Assembly (NCBI GenBank): GCA_033439255.1
Contig: CM065880.1
Coordinates: 3,038,001-3,102,000, forward strand
Length of the DNA: 64,000 bases
Direction: 5' to 3'
From: Hericium rajendrae
Lineage: Eukaryota; Basidiomycota; Agaricomycetes; Russulales; Hericiaceae
The notes beneath the pieces were generated by a model, which saw only the letters and a list, made by a program, of their open reading frames with translations, had not been told where the DNA came from and made no database searches. Within the stretch, counting starts at the first letter, position 1; each line of letters starts with the position of its first letter. This document shows positions 31,311-63,420 of this stretch, piece after piece. The position numbers and the translations under genes are program-made.

Positions 31311-31390
31311 GCTTAAAGGCGGGTTCACAATGCAGGTGAGTCCCTTTCATCTCCTACAAACCTGCACATCTCCCCTTTCGCAACAGTGCT
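31311..31390 (+). promoter_or_regulatory. Leader of family copy 1 with 5'-UTR intron
   Basis: GCTTAAAGGC is followed by CAATGCAG and a GTGAGT donor; an acceptor CAACAG ends at 31386, giving a 51-nt intron four bases before the start codon. The same order (CTTAAG-like box, GATGCAG, donor, CAG acceptor close to ATG) recurs upstream of copies 7, 8 and 9. Confidence 0.55.
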
Positions 31391-31941
31391 ATGTCTATAC
31401 TATCTCTCCTTATCACCCTCGCTTTCTTTCTCGCACCCGACGCTACTCACGTTGCACTTGCAGCGCCAAGCATCTTTCATGACATCGTCGACGATGAGCC
31501 ACCCGTGCTGACTGTCAGGATCGTCGTCGTCGGCACAACTGCATTCAGTACGTCTCAATGTTGCGCTAGCCTCAGAATGCACTCACCAATGCACCCTATC
31601 CGATAGTAACTTTCATCGTCCTCACGATCTGTTTCTTCCTCCTCGCGCAGCGTCATACGCCGCGCCGTCGTCACGTGCCTGGTGCTCGCACCCTTCGAAT
31701 CCGTCTCCCGCACATCTTGACGGACACCATGCTTGCCGAACGCGCATTCATCCGCAGCATCACTGCCGGCGCGTTGATAGTAGGCAGCAATCAGCTCGCG
31801 CCCGTCGCCGCGCCACCCACCGCACGGAGGTCCGGTCATATACGTGTGTATGAGGGCTCGACTTCCTCGGTGTCTCTCCTTTCTTCGCTCGAGTCGGATG
31901 TCACGGACTTCTCGTTCAATGGCGCAGGTTTGCGGGCTTGA
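31391..31941 (+). CDS. Family copy 1: small signal-peptide / single-span membrane protein (163 aa)
   Basis: First member of an unrecognised tandem family. Two exons (31391-31547 and 31607-31941) are joined at a phase-1 intron of 59 nt. Residues 1-25 form a signal peptide ending ALAAP. A short acidic lumenal part (IFHDIVDDEPP) leads to one membrane span at about 43-66, cut by the intron after GTTAF. A basic stop-transfer cluster (RHTPRRR) puts the remaining 95 residues in the cytosol (type I). The tail has LAERAF, an Ala/Gly stretch and GHIRVYEGSTSS, the last shared with copies 7 and 9. Function unknown; a receptor, adaptor or sorting role is only suggested by the shape. Confidence 0.75.
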
Positions 31942-34888
31942 CTCGAGTACCAGTACGCCTAGCAGCCTTCGTACGTTGTCTCCTTTTGTTGGGTGTCCAC
32001 CCGTTAGCTACGTACCTTTGCTCCTGCTTTCATTGTTATGCTTTTCTTGCTGTCGCGCTGTCGAATGTGTTATCAAATGTACTGGCCTCTGTATCCTCGC
32101 TTGCTTGCTTGCTGTGTTGTATCTTGTTTTCATCACGCATTGCTCTATCTCCATAGAATGCTACTCGATTGTATGTTCATACCATGCGTCGCACTTCGAA
32201 TCGACTGCCCGTGGCTGTAAAAGCCATGTGGATTTGGGGAATAGCTTGAGTATAGCTTGCAGCACCACGGCTTCATCAGTGGCTACAGGAAGCGGAATAC
32301 TATTAGTATTGTGCAAGTCGCTTTCGACATGCCAGGGGCAAAAACGTCGACGCGCATGAAGTCCGGGGTGAGACGACTGGTCGCAGTGGTAATGCTGCCG
32401 AGCAGGCGTCAGGAAAAACAACAGTGCGGATCCGGAAGTTTTTGACATCCTCGGTCGCAATTGCTTTAATGCGTGGTACGCAGGGCAAGATGACACAAGA
32501 ACATGTCGACATCGTGGATTGCGCCCTCGGTGGTTTTACAGTAAAATATTCCCGCTACCTTTAGATTCCCGCTACCTTTAGGTAGAGAGTCTTAGGGCCT
32601 ACTAACGTGTTTCACTTTTGGCGGAGGATTCTACTCTACGTTCATGACAATCGACTCCGCTCCGGCTAAGTGCGACGCAGCACCAGTGTCGAGCTCGTAC
32701 AAGTCGACGACTGTCAACTCAGATCGCCCGAGAAGTATGATTCGATTTCACAACATAGTACTTTCGACACCACTTTACATGTCTGCGAAACCTTACATTA
32801 TAGTGGTTGTCGACGGCGAAGATATCCCAGTCCGAAATCGAGCCCATTGAACTCCTTCACTCATGGCACGTGCTTCCGCGCGATGGCACACAAGACGGTC
32901 AAACGCGCGACGTGCTCTACACTCGTGGATTATTTTCGAGCAGATGGAATGGAAAGCAGAATTAGATACTTCAAATATTCTCTTTCAATGCAATCGGTGA
33001 CATGTGCAAAGTCGTATGCTTCAATGCGTGTCGACCAGAAGTGAGCTCAAGGGCTCAGGTAGCGGGCTTTGGCGCGAAGCCGGCGCCGTCGTTATTGTCT
33101 CTTCGCTAGCTCCGGGTGCGTTGTGTCAGGGAGGTTGTGACATTGGCTCTGATACCTCGATTTGGCTATACATGCGGCAGGGTTCTCGTGACAGCCGTTC
33201 TTGCGCTGAGCCTTTGGATGAAAGCAATGCGTAAAGCAACGGTCCTGCACGATTCTACAAATGGACGGCGCAAAGTGCGAAGGTCCTGGAAATAGAGCGC
33301 GTGATAAGATGAAACGAAGAAGATTGATAGAATGGCACCGAAGATAATTGGCTGTCGCCGTCCAGTGCGCCACTACGCCCGATCTGCTAAAGGGCCCGCT
33401 TAAGAAGATGAGCCATGTACATAACCACCAAAGAGTCCGAGTCCGAGTAGAAGCCGCCCGAAGGACTTCAGGAATACACGAAGTGTTATCAAATTCCAAA
33501 ATGGAACCGCACGGAGTACATGCAACGAACGAGCCTTCGACGGGGAACTCGGTAGTGGCATGTGAGTGTGGCTGCAGCGATGCAGCCCCATGATACAAAC
33601 TTACAGTAGAACATCACTACTTTGTGTCTGCTTCGAAAACGACAGCCAGCACACTTATGAACCAAAATACAGGGCAGGTCATTTTGCGTGCTGTCGCAGG
33701 GATCGAGTTGGACGTTGAGAGATGAGGCCTTGAGGACAGAGATAGACGGGGACAGACGGGGACGTCGGGGTTTCGCGTGGCTGACGTAATGACGCATTGA
33801 CACCGAATCGCTGGAATCAACACGTCGGTTGCTCTGACTCTCGCTCTCCTCCCATCTGCTGCCACCGTTGTGGCAGCATCTCCAGACTCTTGAGACGGAC
33901 GCTTCTGATTCAATGAGCTATTCAATGGGTGACTTCCCGTAGCCATCTGGAATGGTTTGCAGAATAGATTTTGGCCGCATTTGGTTTGCCGAATGATGGC
34001 CGAGAGCCAACCAAGCCTTTGGGTCACAAAACGGCATTTCCAGATGTCGAGTCTGAAGGAGGGGAGTCCCCCCCTCTTCCAGAGCGATATCTGTATCAGT
34101 ATAGATATTTTACTCTCCGCCAACCCTCCGCTCGCGCATTTGGCCTCTGTGTCAATGCTCAGCTCTTACTCCGCCTCTCTCCGCTCTGCACATCTGTATC
34201 TTGGCTCAGACACTGCGACTGCGTACGGGCTGCAACTGCTCTAACAATAAATTCCACTTCTCGTTCGAAGCCCGCACTAGTTATCTGCACGCAATCCAGA
34301 TCCTGCGGGAAGTCATCCATTCTATCTGCATCGTGGTAAGCTTGTAACATATCTCTACATCGAACTGACGTTTTTCGCGAGCATTTGCCAGCACGCCACT
34401 TTCCGGGTACACGTACCCCATATTAGCCTTGCTCAGTGCTGGTCTCGCACCTGGCATTCAACATGCTTCTGCAAGCAGCCAAAGATGGGCCATTTGTAGC
34501 TCTGTACTCTGAACTGAGGTTGTCGCCATAGGGTCAAGCATTTTCTAATATTTCTACGACATATAATGGCACGATGCGGGAGATCCCGGACATTGACAGC
34601 GTTATCCTAGGATTCTGGGCCCGCCGCAAACTCACCAGTACCATCCTAGTACCGTAGACGGCATAATTGTCTCCGCTGTGCCATCATGGATCGTATGTGG
34701 TTCTGTCCCTTCTCGGCCCTTTTCGAGTCGCGGTCAATGTTTGCATGCAGCTTGAAATACCAAGGCAGAGACAGTACAAATACCATGTCTTCGTCAGTCT
34801 ATCAGAGCTTGCAGGGACAGAACCCGCGGTATCTGACGCAGAAGTGCCTCGCCACCTGCAGTTCTCGACTTTCACTTCCGTATTAACC
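31942..34888. other. No recognisable gene between family copies 1 and 2
   Basis: This holds the 3' flank of copy 1, then short overlapping frames without domains. A 168-codon minus frame at 33617-34123 has no protein-like features. Confidence 0.45.
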
Positions 34889-35331
34889 ATGCCCTCGCTC
34901 TCCGTGACTGGCTTCCCGCCCTTCGTCCCCCTCATACTCTTCCTCGCTCGCCATCTCGCCTCATTTGCGCTTGCTGCTCCCAGCAACCCTGACACCTCCG
35001 CGTCCGTATCCCACGTCCCATCTTTCAGGATTGTCATCATCGGCATAACAGGATTTTGTGAGTGGCTCGCCATGCCGCGACCCACGCCACTCTCATCGCT
35101 GACAGTTTCTTTGCCCCAGTGACGCTCATTGCCTTGATTTTTGGGCTACCGCATATTATGCGACGCCGAGCCACGCGATCTCAAGAAGCGTTCGAGCTCA
35201 CAAGCTTGCGCAGAAATGCAGATTCGTTACAGCGAAGGCGCCATGACATCAGTGGTGCGCGCTTGAGTGTACCGCGGCCATCAGCGGGCCTGCAAGGCAG
35301 CACGTTGTCTCCAGTGGACAGCGCTGTATAA
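34889..35331 (+). CDS. Family copy 2: signal-peptide / single-span membrane protein (126 aa to first stop)
   Basis: Exons 34889-35057 (169 nt, same as copies 3 and 5) and 35120-35331 are joined by a phase-1 intron (GTGAGT donor, CCAG acceptor). The signal peptide ends FALAAP; about 16 Ser/Thr-rich lumenal residues follow, then a span (FRIVIIGITGF / LTLIALIFGL), then MRRRATR. The tail stops at TAA (35329-35331), but the same frame stays open for 74 more codons to a TGA at 35554-35556. That stretch contains LTADMADVIRTHGGALAG, which recalls the LTDTMLAERAF and Ala/Gly tail of copy 1. The TAA may be a recent nonsense change, or the added part a remnant. Confidence 0.65.
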
Positions 35332-35556
35332 ATGCACCCTTCCCCTGTCACGAACGGCGACAGCCGTCCTATTCCAAGACCTGTTCTCGCACCTCCTGCC
35401 CCTGCTCTCACGGCCGATATGGCCGATGTTATCCGCACGCACGGAGGAGCGCTCGCTGGAGTAGATGCTGCGACCGGGCAGCCGATTGCGACATCATCCC
35501 GCCTCGTCTCCAGCACTGAAGTGTTGTCAGACGTTACGCAGTCGTCTACGCTATGA
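35332..35556 (+). pseudogene. In-frame continuation of copy 2 after its TAA stop
   Basis: This 74-codon frame follows directly, in phase, after the stop of copy 2. It is Ala/Pro/Ser-rich like the family tails. No intron with proper borders removes the stop: a GTATAA donor with a CCAAG acceptor gives 53 nt and breaks the frame. It would be translated only by read-through or from another allele. Confidence 0.4.
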
Positions 35557-36906
35557 TAGCTAGCGGCGCTCCCCATTGCCTCCCCCACAAACTTTCGCCG
35601 TTACAGACCGGTCTTTACGCTCTACATCTTGCAGCCTTTACATGGGCTTGGCTTTGTTCTGACACGTGTATCAGTTCAGCCATGTCCGTATCTGTTTTTT
35701 TGGCAGCACTTCTACAGCATCCTATCTGACTTCGCAGTAATGCAATGCCTTAGCAGAGCCTTGCTTCATCCGGCTCGGGAGTGCCTTCCAGACGTCGAAG
35801 GATGAGAGGATCGACCGAGACCTATGTATATATGTAAGGCAGTCCTTCATCTCCATCCTCAGCACCCACTCGTGTGGTGGTCATGCACTTAAGTACCGTT
35901 GAGTCCCATCCCACTTATGAAAGTTAATAGACTGCTGATGATGCCCACCATTCTTTTCCTAGAGGTTGTATGGCCCGGCCACAAGGACGTGCCTGGATCA
36001 ATCATGCCGCCGCGGCCCTAATCAACTCGATAAGTACGCCAGGTCGAGCTGTGGACGCGTGTGAGTGGTGATCGATTGATCTGGGTGAGTGGGTCGAAGA
36101 GAACCGCACAGCTGACGTAGCAAGGAGAACGGAACGTCGCATAGATCCGATCTCGGGCACCCCAATAGCATAGGAGGCCCGCTGGTTCCTCCGAGGCTTA
36201 GCGGAGACGGCGGATTTGACAGAACTGACAGAAACTGACCGAAATTCGGTCTTCTGATCCAGATGCAGCCGCCATCTCGTGGGCACCCACTCCGGCTCGT
36301 GACCAAAGAACGCCACTGCGAGCCTGAGAGCGTCAAGGGTCTCCAAGCCTCGAGGCGGTCTATGCGCTGTTCTGATGCAGACACATGCACCCGCCGAATC
36401 TCAAGACTGGTTCCGAACGCTGAAGCTTCGAATGTGCAAATGCTGCTGTGTTCGTCTCAAGTCGCACCACTGCCCGGCCGTGCGCCGGCGGGCCCGGGGC
36501 TGCCTTAGATTTTTTGCGTCGACGTCCTGTTTTGATGACGCACATGCCACTGCAAACCTCTAACAAAGGTCGAGCTCGTTGTAAACCGCAGCTTATCTTC
36601 CAAACATGTTCGTCCGAAGCTTATGTTCTTGCATTAAGGACGATGCTCACATTGTGCCATAGTACGGATCCTTGCGCGTCGCGTCGCATCGCGGCCGGGT
36701 CTAACTGTATGCAGGAAAGTCGGAGGAAGAGGGCGCAGAAGCCGATGACGGGATAGAGTATTGATGGGAGCTCGGAGGGAGGGCCTGGTAAGTAATTGGA
36801 AGCTCCATGACAGCGACATGGACCGAAGGTAACACCGCCACTGACTGAGCACGCTTCTCGAATTCTTTCAGTCCATCTTCCCCCTTAATGCAGCGCGGAC
36901 GGCTCA
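35557..36906. other. No recognisable gene between copies 2 and 3
   Basis: Short overlapping frames only, on both strands, without a domain or splice-linked exons. Confidence 0.45.
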
Positions 36907-36912
36907 TATAAA
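36907..36912 (+). promoter_or_regulatory. TATA box of family copy 3
   Basis: TCATATAAATGTG lies 90 bases before the start codon. Nearly the same string precedes the small membrane protein gene at 50022 by a similar distance. Confidence 0.55.
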
Positions 36913-36997
36913 TGTGCGACCAGTCCTATGAGGCAAGCGACCGACCGCTGCAGAGCCTTGCGCACTTACCTCGCCCCTTGTCTCCACATCTACAGCC

Positions 36998-37484
36998 ATG
37001 CCTTCATCCCTCCGTCTTCTCGATCCGGCCCTTTGCCTCACCCTTCTCATTCTCAAGCTCACGATGCTCCGCCCTGTCGTCGCTGCCCCGGTCGACAGCG
37101 GCGCGGCCTTGGACCCTACGTCTGTGCCCGACGCACGCGTGATAGTGGTTTCTGTACTCGGCTTTCGTGAGTGACTCCTAGACCAGACCACAGCCCCGCC
37201 ACAGCCATCTCACGCGCACGTTGACAGTTATCTTCGTCGGCCTAAATGCTGCAATCTTCGTCGTCGCACGCCGTCGCAAGTTGGCTGCGCGCGCCTTCCC
37301 CCGCAGTGCCGCGCGCCCCCTCGCGGTGGCCGCGCCTACCATCCGTGCGCCCGGCGCAGTCGTTTATAACCATGGCCGCGGCTTCATCGCGTCCATGACG
37401 CGTCCCACGCCATCTGCGTCTGCGTCTGGCGAGCAAACGCGTGGCATTCGTGACGTGCACTTCGCGCTTGATATGACAGTGTGA
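36998..37484 (+). CDS. Family copy 3: signal-peptide / single-span membrane protein (141 aa)
   Basis: Exons 36998-37166 (169 nt) and 37228-37484 are joined at a phase-1 intron of 61 nt. The signal peptide ends PVVAAP, the lumenal part is about 17 residues, and the span (VIVVSVLGF / LIFVGLNAAIFVVA) is followed by RRRK. The Arg/Ala-rich tail of about 70 residues has AVVYNHGRGFIASMTRPTPS. A diverged DNA copy of this tail survives at 55442-55609, so copy 3 has or had a paralogue across the transposon-rich centre. No enzymatic motif is seen. Confidence 0.72.
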
Positions 37485-39203: not shown

Positions 39204-39748
39204 ATGTCTCCCTTCTGCCTTCCCGTCGTTCTATTGTCCCTGCTCTATCCTGGCCTCACCACCATCCTTGCGGTTGCAGCACCCATCAATCGCCACATCG
39301 ACCTACAAAACCCCACGCACGTCCGAAACATCTCCATCTTCGTCGGCTCGATCGGGTTCTCGAGTGCGTGATTCGCTGCTGCATACTCACTCACGCTAAC
39401 TTTCACGCAGTCCTCTTCGTCGTGAGCATGCTCGCATTTTTGCGCGTGACCGCGCAGACCCGCCACACGAGCCACTCTCCCGACATCCACCTTCCGCCAT
39501 ACCATACCGTGCGCACCACACGCACCCAGGCTCACGCGGTCGCCCTCCGCGCGCACCCCGATCCGTCCGCGAGCGCGCTCTTCGAGCCGTCCGTCGCCGT
39601 CGAGGTGGAGGTCGTGGAGCTCGCGCCGCTGCGAGCGGCACATACGGCGGACCAGGTGCGCCGGCACGTGTACGATGCGTCGTCGGGATCGGAGTCGAGC
39701 GTAGAGGTCGCGTTGAAGGTGAAGGCTCCAAAGTGCGTGACGAGCTAG
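39204..39748 (+). CDS. Family copy 4: signal-peptide / single-span membrane protein (165 aa)
   Basis: Exons 39204-39363 (160 nt) and 39411-39748 are joined at a phase-1 intron of 47 nt (GTGCGT donor, CGCTAAC branch). The signal peptide ends AVAAP. The lumenal part (INRHIDLQNPTHVRN) includes a possible N-glycosylation site (NIS) close to the membrane. The span is at about 43-64, and the basic flank is weaker than in the others (LRVTAQTRHT). The tail is His/Thr-rich, then acidic with repeated Val-Glu, then TADQVRRHVYDASSGSESS. That last block is shared with copy 5 on the opposite strand 18 kb away, making these two the closest pair. Confidence 0.72.
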
Positions 39749-41080: not shown

Positions 41081-41082
41081 TA

Positions 41083-41107
41083 CTGTACCAATACGGTCGT
41101 AGGCTCA
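41083..41107 (+). repeat. Left terminal inverted repeat
   Basis: This is a perfect 25-base match, inverted, to 45633-45657. It is followed by three to four TAGGCTC-like subterminal units up to about 41200. Confidence 0.92.
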
Positions 41108-41430
41108 CTGGGTGAAGACTGTGACCAAAATATACGTAGGCTCATATGGGGCATTAGGCTCGGTGAGCATTGTGACATGTGACACAAATAAAATAGGCTC
41201 CCAAAGAGCCATTTTGTGAAAGTACGAGCATGAAAAACATAAGTACTCGGCACTGAAACAGGCAGACTGATGTTGTCTCATTGTGCACGATTTACCACTG
41301 AGCTATCAGGCCATAAATGTAGCGCACTTCTTAAATAAGTCGACGCGCGCATTGCGACGGCATTCACGCTGAGGATCCCGGCGAGCTCCAAGCTTTTGCT
41401 CACTCGTCCATCTGCGGTTCAAACGAGATC

Positions 41431-44400
41431 ATGTCAGAGCTCGTACCAGTGAGCTATGCTTCCGTTCCCGAGTCACTTATCGGGACATTTTTGCCTCCGC
41501 TGTCGATCTCCATTACTGCTCTCCTTAATTTCGATCTTCCTCCGCTCTCGAAAGCCGAAAACCCCTCCCTTGATGACCATGCCTCCTTCTCACATGCCCC
41601 CAATCCCGAGGTCCTTACCAACAATCTCCTCCGAGACATCATACCGCCAACCGTCGATACCATTGATAAACTTCGCCTAGACTGCGTGGGGTCCAAGCGT
41701 CCGGTGAAATCCATCACTGTCGATGGTCATCACTTACCTATCGTGGCACTCGATGTCTGGACAAGCCTTGCCCAGGTCCACAGCGTCCGACAGCATTGGC
41801 AGAATGCTGACCGATGGACGAAGAATCAAGAACGGCATTCAGTCGAGCACCGCGCAACGAGCGACGCAATTCATCGCCAGCTCCGGCTGACAGCATGGGG
41901 GGGCCGTTTTCAGGGCTTTGAATCATCAGGCCCATTGGTGATCATGGCATCCTACACCTCCAATCACTGGCTCAGTGACATTCATGTCAGTCAGATGGGA
42001 CAACTTCTTACTTACCGGTTGGCCGATTGCCCTAGGCTCATGGACTCGGTATCAATCCTGGACCCATACTTCACAGATGTCCTGCTGAAGGATCAGGCTT
42101 TGGGCTTCTCGCACATTTGGGTCAGGTGAATCGGGGAAGATCTGACAAGTGGACTCCGTAAGCATGTTCTCGGTACCCTACTCGTCAACGGCAATCACTG
42201 GATTGCTTATCTCGTTGACTTTGAATGCGGACGCCTTGCATTTGGCGACTCCTTTCATATCGGACCTCCCAAGGCTGTGGTCGACACCTTCCTGTCGTGG
42301 ATTAAATCAATTTCGGGCAAGAACATGCATGTCGACAAGCTTACCTGTGCTCGTCAGACTGACGGGTACTCATGTGCTATCCTCGCATTCAATGCAATCG
42401 AACACTTCCTTGATGCGAAGAAGTACCCAGTGCTGGATGGAGGGAAGTCCATTGGTTTGTCGAGGCTGCAAAAGATGAAAGAGGCATTAGCGGGACATCT
42501 GAACGCAGTGCGTCTTACCTACAAGTCTGTATTTATGTTCCTTTACTAACTTCCCTACTTTATCAGCCGGTGCTTGCCCCTGCCATGTCGCACAGATCCA
42601 ACTGCGAGGAAAATGCTATGGAACAAATATCTGATCAACCAGATGTACAGTCAGACACCCTAACACTTACCGATGACAAGCAACCAGTTACGACACACCG
42701 TAACAACTCGCTTTCGTCAGTGACCATTCCTGTCGCTCATGACGTTGCCTCCACGTCGTCTGCCAACAAGGACGATGTGACACCTGAGTCACTGGCCAAA
42801 GAAGATGATGTTGCGTCACCTGCCAGTGGTGTCAGCACGGTTGCGCCGCTCGTTCTTGTCAATGATGTACAACCCACGGATCTGCATCCCAATACCCCGG
42901 GCTCATTGATCCATAAGAATCCGAAGGCAGACCAGGATGAGTCCTCGGATTTGGAATATGGATCAGGAAGCACCAGCGACGATAGCGATGGCCAGGTTAC
43001 TGATGCCCATGATGATGCCCGTGATGTTCAAAAACACAGCGCCAAGCGCATAACTGACTTCTTTCGACCGCTAACAGGTGCCGAGAAGGAAGAATGGGAT
43101 CTGAAGAGACGTAATGAGATGAGGAAGATCCGTGAGCAGGACGAGGAGAAAAAGGATGAGCTGATTGAGGAGGAAGAACATAACAAATGCAAGAAGCTAT
43201 TGAAGAAATGAAAACGTCAAAATGGCCGCAAGACAAAGGAGAGAACGAGGCGCAAGTTGAAAGAAATTGAGGACGGGATCCGTGATGCCGATGGGAAGAT
43301 GCGCAAGAAGCGAAAGGTCTGCTTCCTTTACGATTGATGCATGATGCTCGGGTTGCTGACATGTATCGATGTAGGTGATTTCAGTCGAGCTTGACGGCAA
43401 TCAGAACATGAGCACGGCACCTTCGAACGACGTTGCGGAGGCATCTCGTCCTTTTCGGCAGTTTAAGAACGAACATGAGCGTGATCCAAGAGGCCGAAAG
43501 CTGGTTCACGCACCTCAGAAGGCAAAGCGCACCAACTGGCAGGCACCGTTCCTGTGGTCGCAGATCGAGGCAGCAACAAAGAAGGTTGGCTGGCCATACG
43601 GCGCAACTGACATCGTCAAGGAACTTCAGCATCGTGATCAACGAGTCTTTGCACACCTGTATTCCCAGACTCTGAGGCGATGGTTTTACCAACCACACGA
43701 AAAGGGAAAGATCTGGTCGAAGGCTACATTGGAGCGTGTAGCTAATGGAAACAAGCCACGGACGACTGATAATGGCCTAGGCGTGTTGGTGAGACAGATT
43801 CCTCGGGACATTCAGTTCACTTTAGACTTACTGTTTTTCCCCTCTAGAAACCGTATCCAGATCTCGTCGCTGCAATCATGGAGAAACTCAAGCGTACCAG
43901 ACAGATCGGGGTTGCGCTACTGTTGGACGACGTCAGCGCGATCATGATATCAATGCTCAGGCAATACGCACCTGAGCTCTTCACAAACATCGCTAGCGAC
44001 GGAAGCATCTTCCGTTGTTCAATCTCCTTTGTGCGAAAGTTCCTGGAGAGACAAAATTGGTCCCTGCGCAGTGCAACAAAAGCCGCCCAGAAGATTCCAC
44101 CGAACGCACAGGACCAAATGCGAAGGTCGTTCTTGCGGCAGGCCCTTGCAATTCGTGATGATGGTGTAAAAGACTACCTAAGGGCAAACACAGATCAGAC
44201 AAACTCACCATTCGGACAAGGATCAAAGGTGACTTACAATGAAAAAGGAGTGACACAGGTTGCGGTGGTGGGAACAGAAGAGAAACGCGCGTTCACATTG
44301 GTCGTTGGCGTTACGGCGTCTGGAGAAGCATTGCCATTTCAGGCGATCTACAAGGGAAAGACTGATCAGTCCCTTCCCGTCGAGCAACCGACTAACAGCA

Positions 44401-45487
44401 AGTTCTGGAAGAGAGCCAAGGAACTCAAGTTCCGCTTCGAGGTCTCAGGAAATGAGACTTACTGGTCGACCATGAACACCATGAAGAGCTACGTCAACAA
44501 CATCCTAGCGCCATACTTTGCCAGCGCTCGAGCCGAACACGGAGATCCTGAAGATCAGCTAGCAATTTGGCAGATTGACGCTTGGAGCGTCCACCGGTCA
44601 GCTGAATTCCGTGAATGGATGAAGTCGACTCACCCTTCAATCCAGCTTGACTACGTCCCCGGTGGCTGCACCGGTCTCTGGCAGCCTTGCGATGTTGGCA
44701 TACAGCGACTCCTCAAGCACGAACTTCGGCGTGCGTCTCGTGCGGACATCGTCGAGGAGGCTCTTCAACACCTAGAGTCCAAATCGGCTGATTTTGACAT
44801 ATCGGCTATTCAGCTTGATAAACGAGTTGGAGTTCTCCGAGACCGGTCTGTGGCATGGATTGTGAAAGCTTTTGAGGTGATCAATCACAAGGACTTTGTT
44901 CAGAAGGTGCGTCAGTCAGTTTTTTCCCTGATTGATCTGATGAGAAATCCTCACAGGCCTTCGAGCACTGCCAGCTCGAGAGCGAGCCCCATATCAATTT
45001 ATCACACTCGAGTCTTACAAGCTCAGCTGCTCTACAAGCATTGAAGAACCTGCCGAAGACAGATCCTAAGCTCTGGACCGAGCTGATGCAACATTCACTC
45101 GATGCGAAGCCACCCGTGCTCGTTGACAAGGATTCGGAACTAACAGAGGGCATAGCGGACGAGTTTGCTGATGATGATCTCGCGATGCCTTCGAGCGTGC
45201 TCCGAGACCATCTGAGCAACTCGGACTGCAATTCACGAGGGTTCGTCAAGGATGAGAAAGGTAACGTTGTCCCTGCATCGATTGCAGAGACCTTGGACGA
45301 CGAAGCCAGCGATTCGAATCACGAATTCGTGCAGGGGAATGAGAACACGGGTGTTGAAAGTGAGGCTGGAGCAGGAGCGCCGGGCGCGCCGGCTGAAGCG
45401 GCAGTTGAGGTCGAACTTGGGCGGGGGCAACGGTCCAGAGTGCGCACAAAGCGGTACGCAGACCCGGTGTTTTGGCTGGAACATTGA
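41431..45487 (+). CDS. Ulp1-type cysteine protease fused to pogo-like DDE transposase (interrupted)
   Basis: Five exons (41431-42507, 42567-43316, 43375-43788, 43848-44906, 44957-45487) keep one frame of 1,277 codons. In the first exon a Ulp1 (C48) core has His in NGNHWIAYLVDF, Asp in AFGDSF, and Gln and Cys in RQTDGYSCAILAFNAI. A charged Lys/Glu linker follows, then a helix-turn-helix (YGATDIVKELQHRD to LRRWF), and then a DDE domain with NTDQTNSPFG, LAIWQIDAWSVHRS and GLWQPCDVGIQR. The C-terminal tail is acidic and ends RYADPVFWLEH. TGA at 42127-42129, just before the protease core, and TGA at 43209-43211, in the linker, interrupt the frame; all introns look functional. The protease may remove SUMO or a related modifier; this role is inferred from the family. 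Confidence 0.82.
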
Positions 45488-45632
45488 GCTCTTAAATACA
45501 ATGCTCGTATCTACTTGGTTTCTGCCCGAAAAACGGCCACTTCGAGATCTACCTCCTTAGGCTCATAGCTCCTAGTGACCTGTGACAAAAGTACGATTAG
45601 GCGTAGCTCACAGGCCCATGTGACCTGTGACC

Positions 45633-45657: not shown

Positions 45658-45659
45658 TA

Positions 45660-49939: not shown

Positions 49940-49945
49940 TATAAA
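49940..49945 (+). promoter_or_regulatory. TATA box of the small membrane protein gene at 50022
   Basis: TTCATATAAATGTC lies about 80 bases upstream of the start and closely resembles the TATA region of family copy 3. Confidence 0.5.
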
Positions 49946-50021
49946 TGTCATCGTGTGCTTCAGCCAAACCCGCAGAGCGCCCCGTTACAGCAACATGCGT
50001 ATCGTCCGTATTACTACGACC

Positions 50022-50325
50022 ATGGCCAATTCCCCCACCCCCTTTCTCTCCTGTATGATCAAGGAGAGGGCTTATATTCCCAGCTCCGACCCAGGCCTCT
50101 CCGACACCAACCCGTCCTTGACACGGAATACGCTCCGCGACGTCCTCATCGCGGTAGGTGCGCAACAATTCGACGCTCTCTCCAGCCATTTGACGGTTCG
50201 CTGACCCCCCTCCAGCTGGCTTCATCTTCCTGGTCGCTGTGTTCTACACTGTCGATCGCTGGCTCGAGTGGGGCACAGAGCGCCGCTTCGAGAACATGCT
50301 GAAGCGTACACCACTGCTCTCGTAA
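50022..50325 (+). CDS. Small single-span membrane protein (81 aa), possible distant family member
   Basis: Exons 50022-50157 and 50216-50325 are joined by a phase-1 intron of 58 nt (GTGCGC donor, CTGAC branch, CCAG acceptor). The start at 50022 has a strong context (GACCATGG); an in-frame ATG at 49995 would add nine residues. There is no signal peptide: about 40 polar residues precede one span (VLIAVAGFIFLVAVFYTV), then DRWLEWGTERRFENMLKR and a stop. As in the family, the intron is phase 1 and falls inside the span after a short IAV-AGF motif, and the TATA region resembles that of copy 3. Sequence similarity elsewhere is weak, so membership is tentative. Confidence 0.6.
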
Positions 50326-53300: not shown

Positions 53301-55441
53301 TCGGTGCGTCCTTGCATTCGTCCGATGCCTCCGAGCGTACTGACTTCCAATGCCCCAAGGATCAGGTCTTTGTTATGGAAGAATCCCGTTCTCCGAAGTT
53401 TCTCTGTCCCATTTGAGGGGCGAGCCGGCATTCTGTCAGGAGATCGCTATTACTCCGCTCGCAAAGCCCTGGTCATCGGTGGGTATGGATCCGCCTTGGA
53501 ACCTTCGATCGACCTAAACTAGGTCTCTTTTCACCCCGATTTGAAAAGAATTTGGATGCCATGAGCCGGGACATGGCTCAGAAAAGACTCTTGCAAGCGT
53601 GGTGCCTCATAGGCTTCAAAGAATTAGAATTATTATCGATCTTGTCTGTCGCGTTGAATGGTGCTGGCCTCAGATGGAAATCGATCTGACCAATTTCTTC
53701 AGGACACACTGATCCAGTTATCTTGGAAGTAGCTGTTTCTCAAGGTCCCCGGAATCATCGTAGCCTAAGGATCCTTGAACATGTTGGCTCGGTATGCAGC
53801 TAGATGCCTAGCCGCGCTTCATTCGTCCTCTTCGTGACGAAGGTCCAAAGGATGGTGTAGTTAGATCCCGGCGAGGTCCAAGCGAGGTTAGCATACCTCA
53901 CTTTTACATCCGATTCGAATGGTGGCTCACCGTAGTAGGGGAAAGAACACCACATCTGCAACAGATCGCGTATCAATTCGGCTGCTATTTCTTGACACCG
54001 CATTGAAAGCATCTCAAAGAAAAAATGTCGATTTGCCTTCTCGACAATAGTGGCGGCCGGCCAATTAGTGAAGCAGAGCGCCATTTGTCGAGACCAGTGC
54101 TGGATGCCCGCCCGCCGACAGCGTCGATAAATTCGGGGTGTCTTTACGGAAGATCAGCTTCCCGCCCTTTCCTACGTAGGATGGCGGAACTCACCGGACG
54201 CTGGATCGCCCTCTACAACGGGCAATATCTGCTAATCGCCCATGTCGCTCTCTGCATACGCCTGGTCGTCCTTCCAGGTCATCCACCGTGTCCCGACCTC
54301 GACGTTTGTCTGATATGCAAGTTCCATCCTATGCCTTGGTGATATGGTGGCGAATCGTCGTGGACGAAGGTAGTGGAAGGATATTCAATTCGTCCATGTA
54401 ACTTGCCCTGATATATGGGGTGCTCTGTAAAGCGACGCCTGTGCCGGTACTAAATCCATGATTGTCATCGACGGGTTTCCTTCTACTTGGCCACGACGGT
54501 GTAACGGCTGTCGAGTCCTGACGTGGGCGAAAAGACACGGTAGGACCATGGTACGGCGAAGCCAAGTAGCTGCTCGGTCGATGAAGCGGCAGTACGGTTT
54601 GAGCGCCAGTACTTGCACCCCACGGCCAGCGCTCGACTCATTCTTACCTATCAGTTCTTGACTCGTCGAACTTCGTCGTTCTCTAAGACCCACAGCGATG
54701 GTGGCTTGTACTTTTCGCACTCCAGATCGACTGCAAATTTGCAGACCAGAACACACAGAAAATGCCAGGTTTCGTCGTCACACCGTGGTCCAAATAAAAA
54801 TTTACAGATTTATGCCTTTAGCTCACGGACAGTGCGACGGTCCATTTACCAAGACGAGCAACGTAGTAGAAGCCGTATCAGAATTCGGGTGAGTCCATTC
54901 CATCTATTTGTACCACGGTAAACTGACAAAGCACAATAAACTCGATCATCGATTAATGCATGACGAACGGACTCTCAACGGCTGCCGGAAGATGTTTTCG
55001 GGGATCGTTACAGATAACCTTCAGGACTCGTCCGCGCTGTTGGTGCGACAACGGCACATCTGCGACCTGGCGTGCATCAGAACGCCGAATAATCTCACGG
55101 CGCTACAGCACCGTCGATCGACAAGCTCATGTCCACGCTGGCAGGAGCACCGGATGCGTGTTATGGACTCATCGACGTTGACAGATGCTGACTGCTCCGA
55201 CGATACATCGTGTCTCGCATGTCCAGAGGTTACCACGGCGGCGGGAGGGGGATGGGGGAAACGTGGGCTTGAGATTCCTAAGAATGCCTTCAGATGCGCG
55301 GCCGCGGGGCATGCCTCGCCCCCTTACAGTTGCTTGACGGCGAGCGGTCGTGTCTGCGATGCGTGCGCGACATCTGGCTTCCCGGAGGAGGATGGACGAG
55401 ACTGTCACGGAAAGCGTCAGTGATATCCAACATCCACGAGC
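50326..55441. other. Gene-poor stretch
   Basis: Overlapping short frames only. A minus frame at 52013-52342 begins with a signal-peptide-like segment (FWLVLFSSQAGAP) but has no membrane span or convincing continuation. Confidence 0.4.
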
Positions 55442-55609
55442 GAGCTACTCGCACACCGTCGCAGTGCCGTCACCAACAATCTGCCCAGCGTAGTCGTGCA
55501 TTATCGCGGCGGCGGCTTCGTCGCATCCTTGACGCGTCCCGTGCCGCCGGCAACAGAAGAGCAGATGCGGAGGATTATATTGTTCTTGATATGTGGGAGC
55601 GAACACTAG
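55442..55609 (+). pseudogene. Truncated tail of a family gene (relative of copy 3)
   Basis: A 55-codon open stretch has VVVHYRGGGFVASLTRPVPP, matching AVVYNHGRGFIASMTRPTPS of copy 3 at both protein and DNA level (around 37350-37460). The match fades upstream of HRRSAV, and no signal peptide or membrane-span exon is found, so the 5' part is lost. It lies on the + strand like copies 1-4, although it sits on the right side of the array. Confidence 0.65.
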
Positions 55610-56997: not shown

Positions 56998-57679
56998 CTA
57001 GTTCTGCACCATCCTGGTGGTCGTCACTTCGATAGAGCTGATCCGCAGGAGTGGCGCGGACGGCGACGACGGCGCGCTCCCGCCCGCGCTCGAGCCACTC
57101 GAATGCTCCGACCCCGACGGCGACGACGACCCGTCGTACGCATGCCGGTGTATAGCGAGGAGCTGGTCCGCCGTGACGAGCGCAGGTGGAAAGGCGAGCG
57201 AGACGGTGGACTCGGAGCCGCGCGACGACGGTGACGAGATGCGGAGGGAGATCTCGCTTGTCGAAGCGGAGGAATCGGGCGGCGCGGGCATGTCGATCGC
57301 GATCGCGTCCCGATCGCGGTCGTCGACGGTGCGGGTGGGGCCCGTAGTCTGGCTACGGTATGGATAGATGGGGAGGTGGATAGCGGGCTGGGGGCGAGTG
57401 GCGCGTCGCCTAGTGGCGACACGGAACGCTCCTATGATGAAGAGAAAGAGGACTGGACGGAAGTCGGAGTTAGCGTCTGATTCGGCGCGAAGAAACTATG
57501 AGTGGCGCACACGAAAACAGGAGGGCCCCCACGACGACGCGGGGAGTCGACGCAGGCACGGGGCCGTCGGGGTCAGCATCTCGAACAACGGGCAACGCGA
57601 CTGCGAGCAGGGCCCTTGCGAGTTGCGGATAGAGGGAGACCACGGCGACAAAGAGGGGGAAGAAGAGGGAAAACATCAT
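56998..57679 (-). CDS. Family copy 5: signal-peptide / single-span membrane protein (207 aa)
   Basis: Exons 57679-57511 (169 nt) and 57452-56998 are joined at a phase-1 intron of 58 nt (GTGCGC donor, CCAG acceptor). A long hydrophobic N-terminus (MMFSLFFPLFVAVV) acts as signal peptide. The lumenal part is DADPDGPVPAS, then the span (VVVGALLFS / FLFLFIIGAF) and RVATRRRATR. The longest tail of the family (about 135 residues) is Ser/Thr-rich and contains VTADQLLAIHRHAYDGSSS, matching copy 4. A TATAAG motif lies about 52 bases upstream (57731-57736). I chose the first of two adjacent ATG codons. Confidence 0.7.
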
Positions 57680-57739
57680 ATAGAGAGTGGCTCGAAGGGA
57701 AGGCAAGATGTAACGACCCCATAGTAGCAGCTTATAAGC

Positions 57740-58326
57740 AGGTCTCGAGGCGGTACACGAGAGTGAGTACAGCCAGCCTTCGTAGAAATATTATATTGGC
57801 AGCAAGTTAGCATCGTGAATAACGTTACTTGCGGGCCGCAATCTCCGGCCGTCGGGGGCCGTTCCTGCCATAACGCCCAACTCTCTCGGTAGATCGTCTT
57901 GATATCACTACAGTTTGTTTTCGAATGACATATAGCCTTCGTCGCCGACTCGGTCTGACTGCTGAGCACATTCACAAACAGGATAACTGAGTATGTACTT
58001 TCTGTAAGCTGTCTGCTAATATAATGACGCGACCTAAATTCCAATTAATTAGGATAAGCTATTTGACCGGAAATCTCGATGCCCATTGCCCTGCCCCGCT
58101 CCGTTGCGATCACCGAGGACCTACTGGTAGCTGCAACCTTGCGCCTAGACCTAGTCAAACGAACCGTTCCGACCTTGACCGCGAGCTCTAATCGCGGTCT
58201 TTGCCGGTAGGTACAAAGAGGCACGACATGCAAAGAGTCTGATTAGATTGCAATGTAACTTACAGTAAGTACCGATCCTTACCCCGCATCATCATCGCCG
58301 CTCACTTCCGCCAGATAAACATCATC
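57740..58326. other. Intergenic between divergent genes
   Basis: This is the shared upstream region of copy 5 (minus) and the + strand gene at 58327. No gene was recognised. Confidence 0.5.
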
Positions 58327-58946
58327 ATGTTATCCGGCGATCCTAGTATCGACCACCCCTGCCCCTACTGCAATCCCCGCGCCGAACGCCCCGTCCCGGT
58401 GCCGCGCTCATTGACCACGCCTCCGCTCTCATCTCCCGATACCACGCCCCACTGACAGCGCCCCACGCCGCAGGACCGCGCGCAAGCCGCCGCGCACTTG
58501 CGCACCGCCTTCCTGCACATATGGCTCTCCGCGCCCTCGCCCGACAGCTTCCTCGACGACATGTGCATGCTGACCGACGGCACGCTCGACGCCATCACGC
58601 GCGACCTGCATCTGCTGACGGAGAAGGCGACGCTGCGGGCGCGGATTAAGGCGCGCCGCTGGCGGTATTGGGACGTGTATGGGGATACGTTGTGGGGTTC
58701 TATTGATCGCACACGGCGGGAGACGGGCGAGATGCTGGAGGCGCGCCATGAGGAAGCGGAGCGGCGGCGCCGGGAGATGGCGGATGAGGAGTGTGTGGGT
58801 CCGCCTGGCGGCAGTAAGTTCCTTCGTATGTCTCGATGAGCGACCGTGCCTGACGATCAGCTGTTTCTCCCTAAGCGCATGCTGACGCCGTTAACGTAGC
58901 GGACAAACATGTTGCGGAGGAAGCAGTGGATATCAGGGCTGACTGA
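58327..58946 (+). CDS. Hypothetical protein with CPYC motif
   Basis: Exon 58327-58398 encodes a short N-terminus with HPCPYCNPRAERP. A 75-nt intron (CTGAC branch just before CGCAG) removes an in-frame TGA. Exon 58474-58813 encodes a helical, charged body (AHLRTAFLHIWLSAPSPDSF, ATLRARIKARRWRYWDVYGD, and an Arg/Glu helix EARHEEAERRRRE). A third exon follows a GTAAGT donor at 58814, with two candidate acceptors. Starting at 58876 gives a tail to TGA at 58944-58946, about 160 aa in all; starting at 58861 ends at once at 58874. I favour the longer form for its protein-like composition. Family not recognised; no membrane span. Confidence 0.6.
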
Positions 58947-59655
58947 AAGGCCGCGTGGTGGTGAGCGCTCTGGAGAAGACTCATGTTTTCGGACCTGACT
59001 ATGAGACCCAGGCTTACTTGGATCTATATTAGAAGTGAAGCAAGTGCTCCGTTTAAAAATGTTTTCTCAAATATCTATGCCTTTAGCAGCGCAGTAAAGA
59101 GCTATATTCGCCGGCGCCGTCCGGCGACGAGAGCGTGCCAACGACTTACGAGGGACGCCTTGCTGATCGTTCGAAAATTCGGTTTGTGGGTTCACGCTTG
59201 TCCTTTGGCAGCTGTGCACAGAATGGCGGTGCAAGGCCTCGTTTTCTTATTCCCGTCAGCGGGCCAGCGAACACCACATCATTCAATAGATCGGCAACAA
59301 ACCATCCTTGCGATCTTCAGATCCGAGATCAGATCCGATGCATTCCAAACTCTCTAAATGTAGGGTGCCTGTGGCCGCTGTTCGACCATCCGGCTTCTTC
59401 GTTGTGAACAGTGATGTAGTCCATACTACAATATGTACACGGTGTTCTATAGGAGACTACAGTTGAGTTTAGCAGTGCGTATGAGAACAAAGCAGGAAGA
59501 AAATATCTAGGCATGTACAACAGATAGCACATTCGACAGCAAGAAGATGAGAAAGACAAAAAGCATAGAAAAAAGGAAGGTCGAGGCAAGATTACGTCGG
59601 TGGAATTTGGACATGCGACACAAAAAAACAACGTGCAAAGACTACAGCATGGTAC
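58947..59655. other. Intergenic between convergent genes
   Basis: The 3' flanks of the CPYC gene (+) and copy 7 (minus). No gene was recognised. Confidence 0.5.
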
Positions 59656-60261
59656 TCACACTTGCACACTAGCAACGTCGGACAGACCATCCTCCACATC
59701 GACCGTGAGTGATGACTCGGCGCTGGAATGCAGCGACGCCTCCGACAGCGACGCCGACGCGCCCTCATACACACGCACATGTCCAGGCCCCAGCGCCGTG
59801 CGCGGCGCGGCCAGAAGCGCGAGTGGTATCCTGCTCATCACGAACGCTCCGGCAGCGAAGCTGTCGATGAATGCACGTTCCACTTCGGAAGGCATCATGC
59901 GCGCTATGTCCGTCGAGGTGCGGGAGCGGCGGGCCCGAAGGGCGTTTTGTCTCCGAGTGCCCGAGACGTGACGACGGCCCGGGCTCCGGCGCCGTGGACA
60001 GGCTTGGAACAGGAAGAGGCACAGAGTGAGGACGATAAAGGTGACTGTCGAGTACGGTGTATCAATGAGCATGTTGGAGGCAATGGGAAAATCGACGGCG
60101 ATGAACATACTGAACGCAGTTGTGCCGACGACAGCGACCCTGACTGTCGGGACGGACGGCTGGTAGTCGACTACATCATGCACATGCACGAAGCCTGGCG
60201 CGGCAAATACGAAGCCGGGCCGGAGGAAGAGAACGAGGGCAGCGAGAGAGGGGATATACAT
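59656..60261 (-). CDS. Family copy 7: signal-peptide / single-span membrane protein (179 aa)
   Basis: Exons 60261-60111 (151 nt) and 60044-59656 are joined at a phase-1 intron of 66 nt (GTATGT donor). The signal peptide ends FVFAAP; the lumenal part is GFVHVHDVVDYQPSVP, then the span (VRVAVVGTTAF / ITFIVLTLCLFLF) and CPRRRSPGRR. The tail has VERAFIDSFAAGAF, GHVRVYEGASAS and an acidic Ser-rich end. It is the best preserved of the three minus-strand tandem copies and the closest full-length match to copy 1. No copy 6 label is used. Confidence 0.78.
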   Translation of the reverse strand: MYIPSLAALVLFLRPGFVFAAPGFVHVHDVVDYQPSVPTVRVAVVGTTAFSMFIAVDFPIASNMLIDTPYSTVTFIVLTLCLFLFQACPRRRSPGRRHVSGTRRQNALRARRSRTSTDIARMMPSEVERAFIDSFAAGAFVMSRIPLALLAAPRTALGPGHVRVYEGASASLSEASLHSSAESSLTVDVEDGLSDVASVQV

Positions 60262-60350
60262 AGTGCTGCTGCAGGGAGACGAAAATGAAACTTTGTGTGG
60301 GATGCTTGGTACTGACCTGCATCATGAGAGAGCAGGCTTAAGTACAGGAG
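60262..60350 (-). promoter_or_regulatory. Leader of family copy 7 with 5'-UTR intron
   Basis: On the minus strand a TACTTAAGCC box is followed by GATGCAG and a GTCAGT donor (60316); the acceptor CTGCAG lies at 60269, eight bases before the ATG. Copies 8 (61170-61200) and 9 (63390-63420) carry the same block. Confidence 0.55.
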
Positions 60351-60384
60351 GAGGCATAGAGCGCTACAAGTGTTGCTGTGCTTG

Positions 60385-60519
60385 ACATCAAAAAGTCGGA
60401 CGGCGCCAACAGGGCGCAACGCACTGAAGATATCCTGGATTCCTGTTATGTGGTTAACATCAAAAATTCGGACGGCGCGGGCGCAACAGGGCGCAACGCA
60501 TCGGAGATATCCTGGATTC
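60385..60519. repeat. Two imperfect direct copies of about 60 bp
   Basis: Units at 60385-60442 and 60457-60519 both run from ACATCAAAAA through CGGACGGCG and AGGGCGCAACGCA to ATCCTGGATTC. Short TCCGG-TC units follow to about 60560. Confidence 0.75.
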
Positions 60520-60665
60520 GGGTCCAGTCTGTCCGGTCCATCCGGTCCGCTCAGTCTATCCGGACTGTCCCCGCCCCGGACTACTCAGACACTCCTTCCG
60601 CAGAGAGCTCTGGACGCTCTTCACAGACCTCTGGATGCGCCAGAACGCGAGTTGGTCGTCACGCC

Positions 60666-60724
60666 GGTTGAGGTTGGGATGGGTTGCTTAGGGTTGAGTT
60701 GGGCTGCGTTGGGTTGGCTGGGTT
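60666..60724 (+). repeat. G-rich GGGTT-like tandem stretch
   Basis: Irregular units of GGTTGGGAT, GGGTTGC, TTAGGGTTGAG and GTTGGGTTGGC give at least six runs of three G on one strand. It contains one TTAGGG but is not a telomere array. It could fold as a quadruplex. Confidence 0.6.
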
Positions 60725-60737
60725 CATACGCACACAT

Positions 60738-61113
60738 TTATGCACACATGTAGCCGGGCTTCAGTGCGGTGGGTACCGCTGCAGATGACCGCGAGTCAAT
60801 GGGTTCCCCACCATGAAGCCGCCGGCTGCGAAGACGCGTTCGGCAGGCATGATGTCCATTGGAGGGCGCGGGATATGGAAGGCACTCTGTGACGTGGTGA
60901 CGACGCGCACTGTGGCACTTTGCGAGGATGAACAAGCAGATGTTGAGTACGATAAATGTAGCTGTTGGTCACAATGTGTTGGTGAGCACATTTGAGGCAT
61001 AGCAATGGTGATGATGTACCGAACACGGTTATGCCGATGAACGCTGGCTCGGCAAGTATGATGTTAGACCCGAGGAACAGGGCGAGGGCAGCAAGGGTAG
61101 AGAACATGTACAT
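60738..61113 (-). pseudogene. Family copy 8: decaying copy (105-codon frame)
   Basis: Exon 1 (61113-61020) encodes a signal peptide ending IILAEP, but about 20 codons of the lumenal part and the start of the span are missing compared with copies 7 and 9. The phase-1 intron (61019-60962, 58 nt) is intact, and exon 2 starts with the span ATFIVLNICLFILA and CHSARRHHV. After that the sibling-like tail (RPPMDIMPAERVFAAGGFMVG) is found one frame away, so a frame shift separates it; the open frame instead ends at 60738. A short membrane peptide could still be made, but the conserved tail is lost. Confidence 0.65.
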
Positions 61114-61200
61114 GGTGCTGCTGCAGACGGGTGAAAGTCAAGATATGTGGGGGATACCTGGTACCGACCTGCATCGTGACAGAGCCCTAGCTCAAGTATA

Positions 61201-62756
61201 ATAAGAGGAGATATAAAAGGACGGAGAAAAGGTCCTTCAACGGGAGTAGAAGTAAGTAGCCTGCTGGGAGATCAACCACTTTTATAAGGAGGACAACGGG
61301 TTCTGAATACCTATAAGCCATGTGTTGTCACGATGGCTCGAAGTGGAGTTCTCTTTTTATGCAGCATTGCCAAGCCGATAGCTTGAAAAAAGGGTTTTGT
61401 GGAGCGCCCCATCTGGCGCCTGATCGTCAACACCAGAGACTTGACATGGAGATAGAAAATGAATATACCTACGTGCTGATAACAATATTTCTGGATAGCC
61501 ACCTTGAGATCGCTCCAGCGCTCGTGATCGCCTGGTGATAGCACTTCTCCTGGATATCACTCATAACAGATACTGCCGTGTGCAGGGCACCGTGATGATA
61601 TAGCGCTCTAGTCAGTCGTCCGTCTGCAGCTGATCGCGCAAGAGCCACGTCTCTGGCTTATGCTCAATTGCATAAAACAGACCGTTCAGGCGCAGGTCCA
61701 ACTCTTCGTACGTGCATCATTCCAGATTCGCAGCTCGTCTGGCAGGTCGCCGTCGCCTTGGCACTCTATCTCGAGAACATTGCAAAAATTAGTCTCCGCA
61801 GGTCAGCTAATCCGTAGAAAGGGAGAAAAATATATACGCGCTCCGTGTTTCGTCCGTTTAAAAGCACGTTAGCCAAGGTCGCAGACGAGCAGGGGAAAAC
61901 CCACAAGTCACCTCCTCAGCCACGGAGCCCCCACCGCCGATAACTGCGAGCGTGGTTATCGCAGAAGATAGGAACGGCACTGTCGCATGCGGTGCATGCA
62001 CTGAAGCCACTCTGCCGATACAGCCCCTCGCCCTCGAGGCCACGGCGCTTCACAGGGACGCCTGTTCTGGATGTCTATGCCGTGGTTTCAGGTTCGTTAT
62101 CCTCCTAGTGTAGTAGTGAACCATCTTACAGTCCAAAGGGTAAAGCCATTCGGTTGTGTGTCATGCCATAATGTGTAAAGTACAAGTTCGGTGAGTAACG
62201 CGATCGAATCTGCAGTGGGGTTGGAGATACAGTAACTTACCTGTGGATCCAAGATGGCATCGATTAGGCAGTATTAGGCTACCTTCTAGCCTCCATGGAA
62301 GTTCATCGTGTCCTGACCTGCCAAAAATACATCTTTTGCGAGCATAGCATTTGGACGTCCGAGTCAGAGACTCAACTTGAAGGTGGGCGTAGTGAGATAC
62401 GTGGCGGAGCGTACGGTACATAGGCTCGGCCTTCGCCGAATCGCTGCCCTTGAAAGGGCACCGGCGATCCGGACCACCGTAACGACGGCGCGTCACGACT
62501 GCCGAAATTTGTCTTCAACTTGATACCACACTTACTGCGACTCTCCTCCATTTTCTTTATAATAAAGGAGGACGTGCGTCCCTGCGATCAGGAATAGTCA
62601 ACAACATGTATAGCAGGGCATTCGCAGACATAGAGGTCATTACAGTCCACATTAACAGACTGAGCAACGAGAAAAGCATAGCAGACAAGAAGGAGCAAGT
62701 CTGCAAAGTAGACGATGAGTGGGAAAACAACGAGAAAACATCACACACTAAAGCTG
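61201..62756. other. No recognisable gene between copies 8 and 9
   Basis: Short overlapping frames only on both strands. Confidence 0.45.
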
Positions 62757-63335
62757 TCAGGTATAGCAATACATATAGTAATCAAGTTGTACATCAGCAC
62801 CGTCGAAAGAAAGGTCGGTTGCATTGGACTTGAGCGACGAATGGAGCGACGCTGACGATGCAGACACCGACGACCCCTCAAACACACGCGCATGACCGGG
62901 CCTCAATACGATGGGTAATGCAGCGACGGGCGCGAGCCGATGGCTTCCCACCATGGACGCGCCGGCAGCAAAACTACGGGCGAAGGCGCGTTCGACGAAC
63001 ATGATTTCTGTCGGTAAACGGGGACGACGGATTCCGAGGGCGTTCTGTCTCCGAGCGCCTGGAGCATGACGACAACGCCAGCTACGATGCTCGGCGAAGA
63101 GGAAGAGGCAGAGTGTGAGAACGATGAATGTGATTGGCGACATCGGTGAGTCTACTTCTACCTACCGCGATGACGAGGGCGTACTGAATGCAGTCGTGCC
63201 GACGACAGCGATCCTGACAGTCGGGACGGATGCCTGGTGATCGACTACTATGTCATGCACAAGCCCTGGTGCAGCAAGTACGGTCTCGGGCCCGAGGAAA
63301 ATAGCGAGGGCTGCAAGGAGAGCGAGTGTGTGCAT
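62757..63335 (-). pseudogene. Family copy 9: probably damaged splicing
   Basis: Exon 1 (63335-63185, 151 nt, same as copy 7) encodes a signal peptide ending TVLAAP, GLVHDIVVDHQASVP and the start of the span. The second half (ITFIVLTLCLFLFAE, RRQNALGIRRPR, VERAFARSFAAGA, GHARVFEGSSVS) is open to 62757. The acceptor expected just before ITFIV is missing: the sequence reads CGCCAA, and alignment with copy 1 suggests about eight lost bases. The only in-frame alternative would be a 33-nt intron, which is too short. The 5'-UTR intron donor also reads GG, not GT. It still resembles an intact protein, so the loss is recent. Confidence 0.65.
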
Positions 63336-63420
63336 GGTACTGCTGCAGATGGGTGAAAGCGAAGGTTTGTGTCGGATAATTATTGCTGCCCTGCATCACA
63401 CAGAGCCTTTACTTAAGTGG

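Follow-up and report, generated by a model that had tools for sequence, protein, structure and literature searches.

A 64,000-nucleotide window of the Hericium rajendrae genome (C3:3038001-3102000; positions below are those of the window) holds nine similar stretches, c1 to c9, each coding, or apparently once coding, for a small membrane protein. The locus raises the question of whether these stretches form a gene family and, if so, what its products do. A sequence-only reading had described them as a tandem family of at least eight loci plus a relic, whose proteins have a signal peptide, a short lumenal segment, one membrane span, usually an Arg-rich flank, and a Ser-rich tail, and had proposed surface sensors, self-recognition factors or sorting factors as possible roles. 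It is nearly certain, judging from sequence comparison, that the cluster is a real gene family of single-span membrane proteins. The N-terminal half, consisting of the signal, the short lumen and the span, is common to the Hericium family members, and the place of the intron matches, to within one codon, in all six intact copies. The function of the proteins is a matter of more graded likelihood.

Six copies have clean two-exon GT-AG models that encode proteins of 126-207 residues. Four lie on the forward strand: c1 (31391..31941; exons 31391-31547 and 31607-31941, intron 31548-31606; 163 residues), c2 (34889..35331; exons 34889-35057 and 35120-35331, intron 35058-35119; 126 residues), c3 (36998..37484; exons 36998-37166 and 37228-37484, intron 37167-37227; 141 residues) and c4 (39204..39748; exons 39204-39363 and 39411-39748, intron 39364-39410; 165 residues). 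Two lie on the reverse strand: c5 (56998..57679; exons 57679-57511 and 57452-56998, intron 57510-57453; 207 residues) and c6 (59656..60261; exons 60261-60111 and 60044-59656, intron 60110-60045; 179 residues). The intron is 47-66 nt long, is in phase 1 in all six and falls inside the span. In c1, c2, c3 and c6 it interrupts the codon next to a conserved Phe, after the first base; in c4 and c5 it is shifted one codon downstream. Sites resembling the branch sequence CTRAC begin 15-21 nt ahead of the end of the intron in three copies (c2, c4, c5); c1, c3 and c6 have only weaker look-alikes. The 66-nt span intron of c6 is open in frame, and the orthologue of c6 in Hericium alpestre (P0003, g9583) is annotated with this region translated, which would split the span. 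A coding isoform of c6 that retains the intron was set aside; although neither species has a stop in this frame, 18 of 23 translated positions agree, compared with 20 of 21 in the lumen.

The predicted architecture is regular in its N-terminal half and variable beyond it. Each of c1 to c6 begins with a signal-like segment ending in A-x-A, followed by 17-21 lumenal residues and one span, with cleavage sites and boundaries assigned by eye, and the hydropathy profiles of the 10 family proteins tested all rise to a peak at the signal and again at the span. This layout is the one given by the sequence-only reading. A third and weaker peak occurs in the tail, near residue 112, of c6 and its H. alpestre orthologue. 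Arg directly precedes the span in five of the six intact copies, and the Arg-rich flank is usual, as had been claimed, but it is missing in c4, which has one Arg or Lys in 20 residues. The tails, 56-139 residues long compared with the 17-21 of the lumen, deserve the description Ser-rich to differing degrees, in that Ser makes up 20% of the tail in c5, 11-16% in four other copies, but only 7% in c3. The tail motifs listed earlier were recovered, namely ERAF..AGA and GH-RV(Y/F)EG-S in c1, c6 and c8, and TADQ..YD-SS in c4 and c5.

Relatedness among the intact copies was assessed by comparing Smith-Waterman scores with 300 shuffles per pair, each preserving four length segments that correspond roughly to signal, lumen, span and tail. 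In 10 of the 15 pairs the score was reached by at most one of the 300 shuffles; the pairs c1-c5, c2-c4, c3-c5, c4-c6 and c5-c6 were not distinguished from shuffles. For profile comparisons, subgroup A was built from c1, c6 and three H. alpestre proteins, and subgroup B from c4, c5 and the H. alpestre protein P0001. With hhalign, the N-terminal half of subgroup A aligned with that of subgroup B (nominal E 3.2e-7, probability 93%) and with that of c2 (nominal E 2.8e-8, 95%), and more weakly with that of c3 (nominal E 2.7e-4, 42%). The c2-c3 comparison had a probability of 58%, while B-c2 and B-c3 were weak (11 and 14%). No tail link between subgroups was found with the hhalign profiles, the best probability being 6.6%. 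The common unit is thus signal, lumen and span, since the N-terminal halves are linked and the tails are not linked between subgroups. By the same comparisons there is no single conserved tail module; each kind of tail is confined to its subgroup.

When about 5.8 billion protein sequences were searched, with only 8000 candidates scored each time, five distinct homologues came back among the matches listed, all of them hypothetical proteins of H. alpestre: P0001 (EWM64_g872), P0002 (g9584), P0003 (g9583), P0004 (g875) and P0005 (g5148). Recall was incomplete in that the first search missed three proteins found by the second. P0001 and P0004 share the same longest contig value (47,470 bases), as do P0002 and P0003 (5,463 bases), and these pairs are read as lying on shared contigs and hence as clustered in H. 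alpestre as well. In a 12-row tree, c4 and P0001, which are 81% identical, are orthologous (support 98/96), as are c6 and P0003 (95/100). Species labels must change three times or more on this tree, and so the duplications predate the species split. The placement of c1, c8, P0002, P0004 and P0005 is not settled by this tree, and c2 and c3 form long branches. The best score of c8 is with P0002 (564; the next, with c1, is 405), which is the probable H. alpestre counterpart of c8, and c1 resembles P0002 more closely than P0004, leaving c1 orthology unsettled. The modeled exon junction is matched by three of the five homologues (P0001, P0002 and P0004); P0003 reads through, and P0005, a partial sequence, has an insert lying in the span. 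As far as found among the matches listed, the family appears limited to Hericium.

Three copies depart from the intact pattern, and of the eight loci and one relic originally counted, all starts and the relic are present but only c1 to c6 are intact. In the broken subgroup A copy c7 (60741..61113, reverse strand), most of the lumenal segment is gone and the reading frame of the tail is disrupted, although the place and phase of the span intron are retained. The subgroup A copy c8 (62757..63335, reverse strand) has both coding halves, but its usual span-intron acceptor is gone, the intron ending in AA where relatives have AG, and the donor of its leader reads GG. Splicing to an AG further upstream would preserve the reading frame and add an insert, though it needs a 33-nt intron, shorter than any in c1 to c6. 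Since P0005 carries a similar insert at the same place, c8 may not be dead; its function is doubtful, but it may possibly still be alive. The claim of a single phase-1 intron inside the span of every copy accordingly holds for c1 to c6 and c7 and is unsure for c8. The relic c9 (55424..55606, forward strand) is what is left of a c3-like tail, with 46% identity (E 0.0087; E 1.9e-5 with a c3 profile) and one internal stop.

The subgroup A copies also share a leader. Upstream of c1, ATGCAG is followed by a putative 5' intron (leader 31330-31386, intron 31336-31386, forward strand, from reading of the sequence), and the same arrangement precedes c6, c7 and, with its changed donor, c8. A CTTAA/TATA-like box lies 17-22 nt upstream of ATGCAG in the c1-like copies, and the putative intron, GT..CAG except for the GG donor of c8, ends 4 or 7 nt upstream of the main ATG. 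The leader ATG is out of frame in each c1-like copy, and either a conserved upstream open reading frame or a non-coding leader is possible.

The family was not placed among known ones. None of 11 family proteins (including the partial P0005), nor either of two exon pieces of c8, matched a Pfam model at its cut-off, and two subgroup profiles gave no meaningful match among PDB chains (best E 0.18 and 9.9). Matches to Insulin_TMD, DUF3339, DUF3278, S1FA, NB and BldD-like models all fell below the Pfam cut-off. A match of c1 to the cadherin catenin-binding tail (E 0.015; 15.8 bits compared with a cut-off of 24) was dropped, being absent in the other ten proteins, in the c8 pieces and in PDB chains searched with the subgroup A profile. 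Titles and abstract openings in the literature search offered no description of these proteins, and none of the papers searched mentions any of the five H. alpestre gene names. Within these searches, the claim that the family is unrecognised stands, and profile searching, which could have refuted it by placing the proteins in a known family, placed them in none.

How the cluster arose can be read in part from its layout. Gene order is mirrored, with c1-c2-c3-c4 forward and then c5 (c4-like), c6, c7 and c8 (c1-like) reverse. Inverted DNA matches of at least 40 nt join c1 with c6 or c8 (72-83% over 66-170 nt), and the resemblance of c4 and c5 is seen at the protein level only. Between the two arms lies a transposon-like element (41335-45484, forward strand) with a DDE_1 match at 43848-45041 above the Pfam cut-off and an Ulp1 protease-like match at 42130-42546 just below it. 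The best reading of this layout is that the cluster would be an inverted duplication of a c1-c2-c3-c4 block, with tandem copying on one arm (c6, c7, c8) and decay of c7, c9 and perhaps c8. It is possible, though on balance doubtful, that these are young orphan genes whose copies come and go in a stretch that bears transposons, their proteins being made and under mild constraint while sharing no specific role. One broken, one doubtful and one relic copy among nine, the DDE_1 transposon between the arms, the tails unrelated between subgroups and the occurrence of relatives only in Hericium among the matches listed are all in keeping with such turnover. It accords less well with the two orthologue pairs kept across species and with the constraint on the proteins.

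That constraint is seen both within and between species. For paralogue pairs, the ratio of nonsynonymous to synonymous substitution rates (dN/dS, by NG86, with c8 included though its splicing is doubtful) was 0.44 for c1-c6, 0.30 for c1-c8, 0.34 for c6-c8 and 0.65 for c4-c5 over the whole protein, below 1 in four of four pairs. The ratio was 0.26-0.42 up to and including the span and 0.31-0.85 in the tail; YN00 gave 0.18-0.53 on 6 of 12 sets. Between species, c4 and P0001 agree at 12/17 lumenal, 22/24 span and 60/70 distal tail positions, c6 and P0003 at 20/21, 18/22 and 82/96, and c8 and P0002 at 13/19, 21/22 and 58/84. The corresponding values for c1 and P0004, whose orthology is not settled, are 10/19, 13/23 and 31/77. 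The strongly conserved spans of c4 and c8 speak against mere turnover. The proteins are under constraint or relaxed constraint, and diversifying selection is not seen. The word diversifying in the sequence-only reading is not borne out as a statement about selection; divergence is large, but whole-protein dN/dS of 0.30-0.65 is not positive selection.

The same figures bear on a role in surface recognition or non-mating allorecognition, in which the displayed lumenal end would be compared between hyphae and the copies would diverge under selection for difference. A tandem, divergent, membrane-anchored family found in few species is what such a system might look like. The lumen is only 17-21 residues long, however, and that of c6 is nearly unchanged in its orthologue (though that of c4 is not), and the signal-lumen-span dN/dS runs against selection for difference, so that this role seems improbable. 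Nor does the cluster lie at matA or matB. According to the genome report, strain NPCB A08 is a dikaryon with 3.61% heterozygosity, has at least five ste3 genes on Chr2, and has matA placed on Chr1 (PMC10608310). In the genome search, 18 of 18 STE3 exon matches fell on C2, and the gene cluster is on C3. The cluster is thus not a mating-type locus, an identity that was considered and rejected on these grounds, and to that extent the proposed self-recognition role was not borne out.

What, then, might the proteins do? The reading preferred here, inferred and given a probability of roughly one in three, is that they are membrane adaptors with a short ectodomain, whose cytosolic tail does the work. 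With a lumen this short, orientation and span pairing seem its likely uses, and the tail is the likely working end. The short lumenal end would only set the orientation of the protein, the span would pair with a partner membrane protein, and the disordered cytosolic tail would recruit cytosolic factors. In subgroup B, the tail motif IHLPxY (LPPY in c4, LPIY in c5) might bring in a ubiquitin ligase with WW domains, of the Rsp5/Nedd4 type, and so make the protein a trafficking adaptor. Subgroup A could act through the Ser-rich C-terminal VYEGS-S stretch, which is plausibly phosphorylated. Consistent with a working tail, LPxY lies at the same distance from the span, about 15 residues after it, in three of three subgroup B members, and the distal tail is kept across species in c4-P0001 and c6-P0003. 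Of the roles named earlier, sorting is possible and, for c4 and c5, weakly favored by the conserved LPxY, and the short lumen makes ligand sensing at the surface less likely.

Several observations weigh against the adaptor reading. The tails are unrelated between subgroups, and a single mechanism for the whole family is not supported. The tail of paralogues is less constrained than the N-terminal half (0.31-0.85 versus 0.26-0.42). LPxY was one of 13 tail motifs tried and the only one carried forward; it is absent in seven of seven other family members (subgroup A, c2 and c3), arises in shuffled tails at frequencies of 0.043 (c4), 0.053 (c5) and 0.003 (P0001), and is not independently present in c4 and P0001, which are orthologous. 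The AlphaFold model of P0002, made from five sequences, is poor (mean pLDDT 50.6, the predicted local distance difference test score), with helices at 2-14 and 37-68 and little else.

Known proteins offer partial parallels to such adaptors. Small membrane proteins whose tails carry LPxY or PPxY, among them Comm, Rcr1/2 and PRRG4, bind Nedd4/Rsp5-type ligases or steer trafficking, according to one report (PMC5578492). Yeast Rcr1/Rcr2, fly Commissureless and the vertebrate PRRG proteins resemble the Hericium family as read here in being short single-span proteins with a working cytosolic tail; an LPxY motif occurs in the tail of three of three subgroup B members and of none of the seven other family members. 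The RCR model, however, gave no match up to E 1 in c1 to c6, P0001 and P0002 in the Pfam search, and the same report describes Commissureless as having no signal sequence and PRRGs as carrying a Gla domain (PMC5578492). The likeness is one of layout and one motif, not of membership.

The animal proteins FcR-gamma and DAP10 have a signal peptide, a very short ectodomain, one span and a working tail. The Hericium proteins would have the same layout, but neither an immunoreceptor tyrosine-based activation motif nor YxxM was seen in them, and they have no sequence relation to these proteins; c8 has Phe in place of the subgroup A tail Tyr. Fungal wall sensors of the Wsc/Mid2 type are also type I proteins with one span and a cytosolic tail, but have long Ser/Thr-rich or Cys-rich ectodomains. 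They differ from the Hericium family with its 17-21 lumenal residues, and the family has no such Pfam match.

Alternatively, the lumenal end rather than the tail could be the product, if cleavage at or in the membrane released it as a short secreted peptide of 17-21 residues. The signal peptide, the short lumenal end and the Arg directly before the span would suit a precursor of this kind. Inspection of the six lumenal ends by eye found no dibasic site, however, and a long tail kept under constraint would be unneeded in a discarded stub, which makes such precursors very improbable.

The family appears confined to this locus in its own genome. Protein searches of 19 contigs (46,767,965 bases) found no further copies that were secure; the NPCB A08 assembly is described as 46.77 Mbp, made up of fifteen pseudochromosomes plus four contigs (PMC10608310). 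The best off-locus E values were 2.1e-4 (C14, with c2), 0.0096 (C9) and then 0.15-1.07, and none of these matches was accepted. The C14 match (L041, C14:981699-982004) covers the span and basic flank of c2 and lies in a long frame for a proline-rich single-span membrane protein; it was judged compositional, without strict exclusion. No additional copies were accepted in flanks of 40 kb to the left and 60 kb to the right, where a match to the c3 profile (L033, E 0.0078) was judged on reading to be due to chance. Neighboring genes at 1030-21556 are ordinary (FMN-dependent dehydrogenase, glucosamine-6-phosphate isomerase, aldehyde dehydrogenase and ALG11 fragments). Among them, 8481-16943 looks like a young mobile element; it has at its borders two identical direct repeats of 300 nt, spaced by 8163 nt, contains a second identical pair of 273 nt at 9415 and 11192, and has minus-strand frames of up to 1098 residues without a Pfam match.

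Lineage-limited protein families and clusters are frequent in fungi, and interest in the cluster is modest for that reason. What it would add is a real family that has not been described before, with members so far only from Hericium among the matches listed, and one more family without a known job. In a genus of edible mushrooms it nevertheless provides a lineage-limited set of membrane proteins that can be counted, constant in the N-terminal half and divergent in the tails, and because a second species has relatives, gains, losses and selection can be measured. In a more specific form of the adaptor reading, which is unlikely, the proteins would be genus-specific adaptors whose common span and lumen dock shared partner receptors, while exchanged tails, either LPxY ligase recruiters or Ser-rich phospho-tails, decide the fate of these receptors. 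If the adaptor reading is true, these fungi would be building a set of short-ectodomain adaptors that is the counterpart of the sets of animals.

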